Source of the DNA: a virus
IMG/VR virus record: IMGVR_UViG_3300024520_000134
Span: 1 to 45,268 of that record
DNA: 45,268 bases
Direction: 5' to 3' (one strand)
Part shown: positions 1 through 45,268 of the stretch, piece after piece
Layout of the letters: each line of letters opens with the position of its first letter
Position numbering within the stretch: the stretch's first letter is position 1
Position numbers and translations under genes: made by a program
The notes under the pieces: model-generated
The model's input: the letters and a program-made list of their open reading frames with translations, nothing else
What the model was told of the DNA's origin: nothing
The model's database searches: none

Positions 1-7
1 TGCTGGT

Positions 8-214
8 TCATTCCGCCTCACTCTCCCTCCAGTCGCCCGACCACGACCACGACCACGGCCACGGCCCCGACCCCGACCCCGACCGCGACAACGAGGACCC
101 CGACCGCGACCACGACACCGACCACGACACCGACCGCGACCGTGACCGCGACCACGAGGACCTCGACCGTGACCACGAGGACCGCGACCCTATGAGCATC
201 ATGTGCTGGTTCAT
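8..214 (-). CDS. repeat-coded micro-protein, cassette 1 (SX-dipeptide protein)
   Basis: Encodes 68 residues: a fixed head MNQHMMLIGSR, a middle in which serine (always TCG) alternates with W, R, G, V or P, and the tail DWRESEAE. The ATG at 214 is chosen because GGAGG lies just upstream and because the same MNQHMMLIG head starts the other cassettes. An in-frame upstream ATG at 265 would run into the preceding gene. The stop overlaps the ATG of the next cassette (ATGA), so the cassettes look translationally coupled. No known family is recognised. The middle is low complexity and the DNA hexamer repeat stays open in several frames, so a DNA-level role is also possible. Protein expression is inferred from the conserved ends and start signals. 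Confidence 0.55.
   Translation of the reverse strand: MNQHMMLIGSRSSWSRSRSSWSRSRSRSVSWSVSWSRSGSSLSRSGSGSGPWPWSWSWSGDWRESEAE
37..190. repeat. degenerate hexanucleotide repeat, left end
   Basis: About 25 tandem copies of a six-base unit, CGACCN on the plus strand (NGGTCG on the minus strand). The variable base changes the residue between each serine in the minus-strand frame. The same repeat fills the right end of the window. Such tracts often break assemblies, which could explain why the window starts here. Confidence 0.9.
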
Positions 215-231
215 GATGCCTCCGATAGCGC

Positions 232-7726: not shown

Positions 7727-7866
7727 TGCCAATGTGGGCCCAGCTCCTACTATATCTGGTCGGTCACACCCTGGCGTGTGTGCTGTGGGAGGTCTTGGTC
7801 AGTCGAGGCAGGAGAGGGGCAGCGATGAGTAGGTGGGGCAAGGGGGAGGGGTGTGCCAAGGAGTGA
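7723..7866 (+). CDS. small single-span membrane protein, 46-47 aa
   Basis: GTG 7723 or ATG 7726; both fit the overlap with the previous stop. A hydrophobic span at about residues 5-24 (WAQLLLYLVGHTLACVLWEVL) is followed by a strongly basic tail (SRGRRGAAMSRWGKGEG). The tail would stay in the cytoplasm. It is the last gene of the small-gene block before the packaging promoter. Confidence 0.55.
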   Translation: MMPMWAQLLLYLVGHTLACVLWEVLVSRGRRGAAMSRWGKGEGCAKE

Positions 7867-7967
7867 TGTGGGGGAGGTGTGCCAAGAGGGGGTGTGGGGG
7901 TTTGATTACTGGGCGTGCGTCAAGCGCCGTGCCAACTCAAGTGCGCGGTTAGCGACATAGTGTACCG

Positions 7968-19175: not shown

Positions 19176-19242
19176 ACCCCCGCCGCTCCTTGTCCGCTCC
19201 TTGTCCGCTCATCGCTAATCGCCTAACCTAGACAGAGTACCA

Positions 19243-43115: not shown

Positions 43116-43399
43116 TATTCGTCACCCTGCTCCTTATCGAGCGCCCCGACTTCACCGTCGGCGTAGACGTTATTAAATAGTGCGTGACTCTCCACGCGGT
43201 AGAGCAGAGCGAACTTTTTTATCGTGTCCTCGGTCAAGCGTCGCTGTCCTTTTTCCAGACGACATATGAGTGCCTCGCTAATACCTAGAAATTGAGCTAC
43301 GTCGGACTGCCGCCAATCTTGCGCCTCACGTAGAGCTAACAGTCTGTTCGGTGGCGCTTCGTTCTTGGTTACCCGTCTACGTCTTGCTTTCTTACTCAT
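43115..43399 (-). CDS. XRE-family helix-turn-helix regulator
   Basis: 94 residues. LLALREAQDWRQSDVAQFLGISEALICRLEKGQRRLTEDTIKKFALLYRV is a clear XRE DNA-binding domain (residues 20-68) preceded by a lysine/arginine-rich start. It is a good candidate for binding the TGTCC or CCAAwwTTGG sites. Its stop and the next start overlap as TAATG, and its start overlaps the helicase stop (ATGAGTAA). Confidence 0.85.
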   Translation of the reverse strand: MSKKARRRRVTKNEAPPNRLLALREAQDWRQSDVAQFLGISEALICRLEKGQRRLTEDTIKKFALLYRVESHALFNNVYADGEVGALDKEQGDE

Positions 43400-45077
43400 T
43401 GATATAGCCCGCCAATTCTCGCATTTTGTTCACGAGCTCGCGCCCGCTGGTGATTTCGTTTGTGACACGATTGACAGTCATGTCAATTCTGTTTTGTTTA
43501 TCGCGCACGTTGCGCGAGATAATTTCGTCTAGCGGGTGATTCGCTAGCATGTCATATATGACGACTGACTGCGCCGTCTGCCCGATGCGCGCGATTCGGT
43601 CCTCCGCCTGGACATTGTTCGCCGGCACCCAGTCGCGTTGCACCATCAACATGTGCGCCGCTCGGGTTAGCGTGATGCCCGTCCCGCCCGCAACGGTCTG
43701 GATACCTATCACGGGCTCGTCGCCGGCCTGAAAAGCCTCGACCGCCGCCTGACGCTTCTCGGGTGGCACGTCGCCCATGATGACAGCGAAGCCGCGCTTG
43801 CGTAGCTCCTGGAGCGGCGCAGTGTTGCACGAGCAGATCACCAATGGGGCACCCTGCTCGCGGAAGCGCTCAACAACCTCTAGCATCTGAGGAATCTTCG
43901 CCTCAGCGAGCGCCGCCCGAGCGTCGGAGAAGCCCGAAAATTGCTCAAACTTGAGTAACTCAAGACCACCCTTGTCCACGGCGCGGAAGATCCTCTGGTG
44001 CTCCTTGGTGGTCTTGGGCAGCGAGACTTTGCTATCGCGAAGGTCTACATGGATCTCGGCATAGGTCTTGCTGGGCAGCTCCGGGAGCACATCCGCTCGC
44101 GCTCGTCGGATAGCCACGCGCCCGAGCGACCGCACGATTGCGTCAGGGTAGGGTGCTTTCGCCGGCCAGTCTATCCGGCCAGTGATCTGGTCAAAGTGTA
44201 CCCCGAAAGCGACGTCGAAGTATTTTGCCGTGGGCCACGCCCGCGAAAACAGTCCGAACGCTTGCAGCACTCCGCGCAGGTCTGGGGGTCGGTTCGTCAT
44301 CGGTGTTCCCGTCAGGGCCCACACCCGCGCACACCGCTTCGCGATGGCGGCTAGGGCCTGTGTGCGCTTGGCTGTGGTGGTTTTGTAGTAGTGCGCCTCG
44401 TCGACCACCAGGGTGATTGTTTCGCCGCCCAGCTGGGCGATGGCCCGCGTCATGCCCTCTGGACTGCAGATCACGCCCTCACCCTTGTCCGGATTGGTGA
44501 TGCCCGACGTCTTGAGCGCAGTTCGCCATGTGATGTCGGGGCGCCACGTCTCGCCCTCCTTGAGCCATGTGAGCCGCATGCTGGCGGGACATACCACCAG
44601 CACAGCCGCCGAGCTGGGCAGTGCCGCCAAGACCTGGACTGTCTTGCCCAGGCCCATCTCGTCCGCGAGCAACGCTCGTGGGTGTGTGGTGAGGTACTCC
44701 GCGCCGTCTTGCTGGTAGGGGTAGAGAGGGTGCGGCAGTTTGGCGCAGCGGCGGGTGAGATGGCCTAGCCGCCGCTCTAGTGATTGCGCGGCAGCGACTA
44801 GGGCTGCACCGATCTCCGGGTCGGGGGTCACCGAGGTTTCAAATGCGTGCAGCGCGGCCACGAGATCCGGGAGGTCCCGAAAGCTAAATATGTAGGGCTT
44901 GATTGAGCTCGCACGCTCGCCACCGTGGGCGATGCACAAGTGTTTGAATGCGAGGGCCTCGCACTTCGAGGCGCCGGAAATTGTCGCGCCGAATTGCTCA
45001 GCATCGATATGTCTTAGCCAGACCCGCAGCCCTGGAGGCAGCACGGGCTCAGGCAATTTTCGCACGGAGTATTTCAC
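43392..45077 (-). CDS. SNF2-family DNA helicase/translocase
   Basis: 561 residues from GTG 45077, overlapping the TGA of a micro-gene cassette (GTGA). Motif I is DEMGLGKT (139-146), motif II DEAH (226-229), and motif VI QAEDRIARIGQT lies near 507, the usual order in SNF2 translocases. The 110 residues before the helicase core may bind DNA or a partner. Phage SNF2 proteins remodel replication or recombination intermediates; in leftward order this is the first large gene after the repeat array. Confidence 0.9.
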   Translation of the reverse strand: MKYSVRKLPEPVLPPGLRVWLRHIDAEQFGATISGASKCEALAFKHLCIAHGGERASSIKPYIFSFRDLPDLVAALHAFETSVTPDPEIGAALVAAAQSLERRLGHLTRRCAKLPHPLYPYQQDGAEYLTTHPRALLADEMGLGKTVQVLAALPSSAAVLVVCPASMRLTWLKEGETWRPDITWRTALKTSGITNPDKGEGVICSPEGMTRAIAQLGGETITLVVDEAHYYKTTTAKRTQALAAIAKRCARVWALTGTPMTNRPPDLRGVLQAFGLFSRAWPTAKYFDVAFGVHFDQITGRIDWPAKAPYPDAIVRSLGRVAIRRARADVLPELPSKTYAEIHVDLRDSKVSLPKTTKEHQRIFRAVDKGGLELLKFEQFSGFSDARAALAEAKIPQMLEVVERFREQGAPLVICSCNTAPLQELRKRGFAVIMGDVPPEKRQAAVEAFQAGDEPVIGIQTVAGGTGITLTRAAHMLMVQRDWVPANNVQAEDRIARIGQTAQSVVIYDMLANHPLDEIISRNVRDKQNRIDMTVNRVTNEITSGRELVNKMRELAGYINE

Positions 45078-45163
45078 TGCGACTCACTCTCCATCCAGTC
45101 GTCCGACCCCGACCACGACCGCGACCACAACCTCGACCCTATGAGCATCATGTGCTGGTTCAT
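45074..45163 (-). CDS. repeat-coded micro-protein, cassette 3 (shortest)
   Basis: 29 residues: MNQHMMLIGSR, a short middle LWSRSWSGS, and DDWMESESQ. It is the complete short form of the cassette seen at 8-214, with the same head and tail. The start overlaps the stop of cassette 2 (ATGA); the stop overlaps the helicase GTG. If translated, it couples the array to helicase synthesis. Confidence 0.5.
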   Translation of the reverse strand: MNQHMMLIGSRLWSRSWSGSDDWMESESQ

Positions 45164-45268
45164 TCCGCCTCACTCTCTAGCCAGTCGCCCGACCACGACC
45201 CCGACCACGACCCCGACCCCGAGGACATCGACCACGGCCACGACCCCGACCACGACCCCGACCCCGAG
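45080..45268. repeat. hexanucleotide repeat array, right end
   Basis: Same CGACCN six-base repeats as at the left end, in two tracts (about 45095-45139 and 45187-45268) separated by the conserved cassette head and tail. The window ends inside a tract. The segment at 45153-45177 is identical to bases 1-25 of the window, then diverges, so the ends are different copies of one unit and not simple terminal duplicates. Confidence 0.9.
45160..45268 (-). CDS. repeat-coded micro-protein, cassette 2 (cut by window edge)
   Basis: The C-terminal part of a cassette: alternating serine with G, W, P or M, ending SGDWLESEAE. The start is outside the window or, if the ends are joined, at ATG 11 at the left edge: joining gives MNQH directly followed by SGSGSW in the same frame, lacking the MMLIG residues. 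The frame is preserved across the join, which is suggestive but not proof of circularity. Confidence 0.45.
   Translation of the reverse strand, partial: SGSGSWSGSWPWSMSSGSGSWSGSWSGDWLESEAE

Follow-up and report, generated by a model that had tools for sequence, protein, structure and literature searches.

A gene pair of a predicted Sm-like protein and a hypervariable serine-alternating micro-protein in phage genomes

Organisation of the locus

The window, which is the whole stretch of 45,268 nucleotides of the virus record IMGVR_UViG_3300024520_000134, harbours on its minus strand a partner gene, a short spacer, the consecutive micro-genes here called cassettes A, B and C, and a SNF2-type helicase gene, in this order. 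The partner gene (232-588) encodes a protein of 118 aa and is followed by a 17-nt spacer (215-231) with a GGAGG Shine-Dalgarno-like motif, which reads GCGCTATCGGAGGCATC and then the ATG of cassette A. Cassette A (8-214) encodes 68 aa, consisting of the head MNQHMMLIG, an S-[R/W/G/V/L] array and the tail GDWRESEAE. The start of cassette B (1-11), whose ATG overlaps the TGA of cassette A, leaves the contig at the left end, and its remainder (45160-45268), comprising the array and the tail GDWLESEAE, leaves the contig at the right end. Cassette C (45074-45163) encodes 29 aa, with the head MNQHMMLIG and the tail DDWMESESQ. Cassettes A and B, as well as B and C, are joined by an ATGA overlap, while cassette C and the helicase gene (43392-45077) are joined by GTGA, the start of the helicase lying on the stop of cassette C. 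The helicase corresponds to Pfam PF00176 and PF00271 and to PHROG 62 (DNA helicase), and is probably co-transcribed with the cassettes. The one relative of this helicase that was found lies in a locus lacking the array. The number of cassettes is given as at least three, because both contig ends fall within cassette B.

The initial annotation had described at least three overlapping micro-genes with fixed ends, and the intact cassettes A and C together with the ATGA joins agree with this description. It had also assigned the head MNQHMMLIG to all three cassettes; for cassette B this was an inference from the window alone, because the contig ends cut its head. A second contig, IMGVR 3300024517_000068 (L003), is 100% identical to the window across 20.9 kb, including an identical cassette A, and reaches 34 nt beyond the left end of the window, where it reveals the head of cassette B, MNQHMMLIGSGSWSW. 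The hexamer-coded middle of the cassettes was likewise recovered, with 44 matches to GGTCGNGGTCG (at most 1 mismatch) compared to 8.1 +/- 2.7 in shuffled sequences. The partner gene was absent from that annotation, and its presence makes the array one half of a two-gene module. Taken as a whole, the earlier interpretation is partly supported.

Viral genes in the record include terminase, portal, tail sheath, baseplate, PolA and primase. Upstream of the partner gene, at 634-729 on the minus strand, lies a tRNA-Ala(CGC) gene, which at 96 nt is unusually long and was also detected with Rfam. Short tandem repeats at 7850-7900 (a 26-mer, two copies) and 19183-19210 (an 11-mer, 2.5 copies) are unrelated to the array. 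Acidic residues outnumber basic ones in cassette C (four D and E, two K and R), so a net positive charge of the micro-proteins is not universal.

Predicted structure of the partner protein

The partner proteins belong to two related subfamilies, A1 and A2, which are homologous to each other (hhalign E 8e-12). The gene at 232-588 belongs to subfamily A1, and was found at E 7.5e-20 by an A1 profile made without the window sequence. Searching IMG/VR with the partner query alone revealed at least 389 confirmed relatives for A1 and at least 307 for A2. The partner loci analysed here are the best 80 of the at least 389 and the best 80 of the at least 307, leaving 140 loci after dereplication. In INPHARED one record was found per partner query; both are Manatee Spring metagenomic genomes, and the micro-ORF is present in them. 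A1 and A2 belong to no Pfam, PHROG, NCBIfam or PADLOC family, and matches in PADLOC, PHROGs and NCBIfam were at chance level only.

AF2 models drawn from 23 and 13 sequences reached a mean pLDDT of 86.7 for A1 and 83.3 for A2. In the Foldseek search, the A2 model matched Sm/LSm proteins with a best E of 3.9e-4 and a TM of about 0.6-0.7. The A1 model matched mostly Sm/LSm chains, with a best E of 2.2e-3 and a probability of 1.00, which is weaker than for A2. The Sm fold is defined by an N-terminal helix and a bent five-stranded barrel, and most of the top structural hits of the models were Sm/LSm proteins. Based on these models, the partner is predicted to be a small Sm/LSm-fold protein. Neither subfamily matched a Pfam Sm family at E<=1, and hhalign of the partner against one archaeal Sm sequence, an approximate query, gave no match (E 0.39). 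The protein is named Sm-like, and not a member of the Sm family, because similarity to Sm proteins was not found at the sequence level.

Association of the partner with the micro-ORF

A downstream micro-ORF with at least six S[WRG] dipeptides was found in 125 of the 140 dereplicated partner loci; several of the other 15 stop at a contig edge. The gap between both genes is exactly -4 nt, corresponding to an ATGA overlap, in 54 loci, and lies between -10 and +25 nt in 106. Starting from the arrays, a partner gene lies at most 600 nt upstream of 59 out of 76 long (TCGNGG)n tracts, always on the same strand, and for the remaining 17 no recognisable partner was detected within that distance. Under a strict definition of S[WRG]-dense ORFs, partner loci contained 164 in 0.85 Mb, and control loci 11 in 2.0 Mb. 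The micro-proteins range from 25 to 270 aa, with a median of 66. The design of a head followed by (S-x)n, for which the initial annotation had suggested a search of phage metagenomes, recurs across IMG/VR in hundreds of phages, most of them uncultured.

The heads differ between the two subfamilies. A basic K-rich head is present in 1 of 66 A1 loci versus 42 of 56 A2 loci (Fisher p 2e-19), and a N..G-type head motif in 31 of 66 A1 loci versus 1 of 56 A2 loci (p 3e-9). Docking could explain this association of head and partner, and so could common ancestry. Two to eight tandem cassettes were found in 25 of 143 loci, several of them with the -4 gap, therefore the tandem layout of the window has parallels. 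In one locus (L014), an A1 partner precedes a tandem series of four cassettes, whose heads are of the MIILKANEW type. Recognisable neighbours of the arrays include helicase, primase, methyltransferase and terminase genes.

The two-part module is thus well supported as a real and apparently undescribed entity. No description of it was found in a literature search covering mainly open-access journal articles, which, together with the libraries searched, agrees with the earlier statement that no such family had been described.

Reading frame of the hexamer arrays

Scanning IMG/VR for (TCGNGG)5 revealed at least 120 loci. The hexamer array is open in all reading frames. An open frame alone is therefore no proof of coding, and the evidence for coding is comparative; for this reason the sequence preceding the array was examined. 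Of 72 arrays with 12 units or more, 59 had an ATG no more than 20 codons before the array in the Ser-X frame, compared with 15 and 13 for the other two. The translations start with short heads (MNAALLRAGFDR-like, MRGLKQKYR-like and others), continue with (S-[R/G/W])n and end with a stop. Gly-Arg and Arg-Pro as the true coding frames are ruled out by this evidence from heads and frames. A frame-broken relative was observed in L058 (1366-1677, reverse strand), in which the array shifts among the Ser-X, Gly-Arg and Val-X frames.

The comparison with a reversed-hexamer control rests on run lengths among the matches listed, and match counts are not used as evidence. Among these listed matches, the median run length was 14 units for the hexamer versus 7 for the control, and 35 loci versus 2 had at least 20 units. 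In bacterial genomes (L327-L444) the same hexamer forms for the most part plain microsatellites, chiefly (TCGTGG)n or A/G mixes, and no consistent head or frame accompanies them. Such bacterial (TCGTGG)n and A/G-mixed (TCGNGG)n repeats are common in Myxococcales and gammaproteobacteria. The phage arrays do not behave as simple microsatellites: the three unit types make up about one third each, and frame and head are conserved. In the search for a host, no match was found in plasmids, and A1 had no match in the two bacterial bins (L336 and L416) where array-like heads occur.

Codon usage and composition of the arrays

Among the loci retrieved with the partner, the codon used for serine in the array is TCG in 56, TCT in 40, AGC in 16, TCA in 6, TCC in 2 and AGT in 2, and it is uniform inside an array (median uniformity 1.00). 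Arginine codons are nearly all AGG or CGG, and glycine is chiefly encoded by GGG. In loci picked by the partner and not by the repeat, the residue following serine is glycine in 890, arginine in 887 and tryptophan in 821 of 2932 cases. Because the serine codon differs across phages while the S-[W/G/R] composition stays at about 1:1:1, selection acts on the protein. The initial annotation had suggested examining whether the base pattern reflects such selection. Serine codons switch while the protein remains constant, as expected for a selected protein; on the other hand, the third base of TCG, although synonymous, is equally fixed, with 41 changes per 2164 units versus 74 and 51 at the non-synonymous positions. 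The fixation of this synonymous base is more than protein selection alone explains.

The base N in (TCGNGG)n is nearly random and the rest of the unit is fixed. At this base, {C,G,T} or {A,G,T} is the set found in most arrays, and A and C seldom occur together. Random mutagenesis targeted at N is unlikely for this reason, and because arginine is at about 1/3 and not 1/2. A putative recombination process that shuffles three preformed unit types fits the arrays better than point mutation.

Hypervariability of the arrays

Arrays differ between loci with identical or near-identical flanks, as in the pairs L577/L585 (77 versus 61 aa) and L579/L581 (55 versus 27 aa). In L453/L455 a single Trp/Arg change was found in the array, and in L024/L111 the arrays are unlike although the flanks are identical or near-identical. 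These pairs bear out the earlier proposal of a middle that varies in length by slippage or recombination. The order of units in (TCGNGG)n arrays is close to random, with identical neighbours slightly avoided (666 versus 734, z -3.2), and an internal duplication is present in 20 of 101 arrays.

Contig ends accumulate downstream of the partner: 26 lie within 300 nt downstream, 4 and 2 in the next bins, and 5 upstream (p 2e-4). This is consistent with what is expected from population-variable or unresolved repeats. As assemblies often break within arrays, the genomes of such phages may be fragmented in a systematic way or be listed as linear.

Diversity-generating retroelements resemble the arrays in that both show local hypervariation in a phage gene. 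However, the phage arrays vary by unit change and by insertion and deletion of blocks, and at the variable base most of them use no A or no C, a pattern that gives no hint of unbiased replacement. The reverse transcriptase PF00078 was absent from the 45 kb record, which may be incomplete, and a retroelement was rejected as the source of the variation.

A parallel module with DUF6948

DUF6948 (PF22253) proteins in BFVD resemble the A2 model (E 6.8e-4, TM 0.66). An alignment of five DUF6948 proteins showed a weak relation to A1 (hhalign E 6.5e-5, probability 64%), while a single DUF6948 sequence showed no convincing similarity to the partner. No match to Pfam DUF6948 was detected at E<=1 for members of A1 or A2, and the window had no DUF6948 match either. 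On the structural comparison, DUF6948 is predicted to be Sm-like too.

In the cultured phages Iodobacter PhiPLPE, Pectobacterium Koroua, Chlorobiaceae CV-1-33 and Vibrio IKEMa6-1, the next ORF after DUF6948 encodes (Gly-[Ser/Tyr/Asp])n; in PhiPLPE this micro-ORF is unannotated. An alternating downstream ORF was found in 72 of 72 dereplicated DUF6948 loci of IMG/VR, using a frame-tolerant score by which some were read in the wrong repeat frame. With a strict test of Gly-[S/Y/D/N] density, such an ORF was present in 71 of 80 DUF6948 loci, versus one in 199 control loci. In these micro-ORFs, glycine is followed by serine in 909, tyrosine in 696, aspartate in 517 and asparagine in 212 of 2734 cases. 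DUF6948 with its micro-ORF was observed in L610 (1432-2025), L611 (812-1406), L613 (1456-2107) and L616-L695, which include both cultured and uncultured phages, often with a 13-nt overlap. Both modules occur together in L110/L616, L020/L518, L477 and L483. Papers mentioning DUF6948 or the adjacent micro-ORF were not found in the literature search, which again covered mainly open-access journal articles.

Similar to A1 and A2, DUF6948 is a small protein, with a structure like that of A2 and a weak profile similarity to A1, and has an alternating low-complexity micro-ORF directly downstream. It differs in the tail, which is Gly-[Ser/Tyr/Asp] instead of Ser-[Trp/Gly/Arg], and in the gap, which is typically -13 instead of -4. 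The tails follow a common plan, in which a constant small spacer alternates with aromatic (W/Y), charged (R/D) and small (G/S) residues.

Comparison with known systems

An Sm fold combined with a disordered low-complexity tail is known from LSm14/Scd6 and from the RG tails of SmB/D. According to PMC5606850, the C-terminal tail of Hfq is a flexible low-complexity part on the Sm fold. Unlike in these Sm, LSm and Hfq proteins, the phage tail is encoded by a separate, translationally linked micro-gene, and it is hypervariable and sometimes present in several copies. RGG and FUS-type domains possess aromatic residues and arginine, or tyrosine, alternating with Ser/Gly spacers. The phage tails share this sticker-spacer pattern, but are strictly of period two and phage-encoded, and condensation is putative for them. 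The SD repeats of Clf/Sdr proteins are also Ser-X dipeptides, and NCBIfam matches to them were weak and below threshold; however, these are long surface proteins, while the phage product is short and bears no sign of export.

Proposed mechanism and alternative explanations

The fixed composition and free order of the arrays are what a multivalent sticker-spacer tail would need, and the Sm-like partner suggests RNA as a ligand. We infer the function of the module from these features. The product of the first gene would be a small Sm/LSm-fold protein, which would assemble into a ring if it forms oligomers as its structural relatives do. The second gene, overlapping or close behind and sometimes duplicated in tandem, would provide a head matched to the partner subfamily and a disordered tail, whose every second residue is serine and whose other residues are a nearly random series of tryptophan (aromatic), arginine (charged) and glycine (small). 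The head may dock on the Sm-like protein, and the many flexible tails would then yield a multivalent particle that binds or condenses RNA or DNA during early expression or replication of the phage. Under this proposal, array length and order drift fast because only composition matters and the hexamer slips and recombines. An Sm-like protein with a multivalent tail micro-protein that binds or condenses nucleic acids is our tentative reading, to which we give somewhat less than an even chance.

Another explanation, unlikely in our judgement, is selection for diversity itself: carried by the Sm-like protein, the tail would act as a decoy or as an interaction surface, serving to evade or block a host defence or another host factor. 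Unlike arrays between identical or near-identical flanks and the accumulation of contig ends downstream of the partner (26 versus 5 upstream, p 2e-4) would be expected from it. However, the near-random order and the composition of about 1:1:1 fit tolerated drift equally, unresolved repeats break assemblies as well, and neither a reverse transcriptase in the window record nor a match in PADLOC was found. The initial annotation had considered a displayed peptide; this is not supported by the locus, where a secretion signal was not noticed and replication genes lie nearby.

A toxin-antitoxin or antimicrobial pair, in which the Sm-like protein holds in check a Trp/Arg-rich peptide directed against membranes or RNA, would account for two small overlapping genes with a composition rich in tryptophan and arginine. 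It is improbable, as the same architecture occurs with Gly-[Ser/Tyr/Asp] tails carrying acidic in place of basic residues, no hydrophobic segment is apparent, and neither the tandem cassettes nor the freely changing order suits a toxin well. We consider a neutral or selfish microsatellite within a coding frame very improbable: despite the plain microsatellites of the same hexamer in bacterial genomes, phage arrays mix three units at about one third each, retain head and partner, and recur with other codons.

The remaining two explanations have hardly any probability left. An element acting at the DNA or RNA level, with frames open by chance, had been offered by the initial annotation as an origin or packaging tract; we also considered iterons and an RNA ligand of the Sm-like protein, including a TRAP-like repeat RNA. 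The hexamer is near-invariant inside arrays, synonymous base included, and phage arrays often lie near replication genes, as such an element would have it. Nevertheless, it is already contradicted by the block switching among six serine codons with constant amino acids, frame, head and ATGA overlap are all retained, and beyond NGG no nucleotide motif is common among phages. Peptidyl-tRNA drop-off at NGG codons is a topic in the literature, and a translational attenuator, with NGG codons near the start tuning downstream genes, would suit the variable codons of the Trp/Gly/Arg type, nearly all of which are NGG, but the DUF6948 micro-ORFs lack NGG codons, the arrays have 15-50 units and begin about 10 codons in, and the downstream genes vary among phages.

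Significance for phage biology

Standard annotation passes this system over, because the micro-ORFs are tiny, of low complexity and masked as repeats, assemblies tend to break in them, and the partner has no family model. The module would be a widespread phage system with hundreds of independent natural variants. A general phage kit, in which Sm-like scaffolds and sticker-spacer micro-proteins in basic Trp/Arg-Ser and acidic Tyr/Asp-Gly forms would build nucleic-acid condensates, with fixed composition and an order reshuffled from a three-unit codon alphabet, is a wider and rather unlikely generalisation of the tail-particle proposal. The DUF6948 module is present in cultured phages, therefore direct experiments are feasible now. 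The hundreds of variants make the two-part system a natural test of whether composition, and not sequence, carries the function of a disordered protein.
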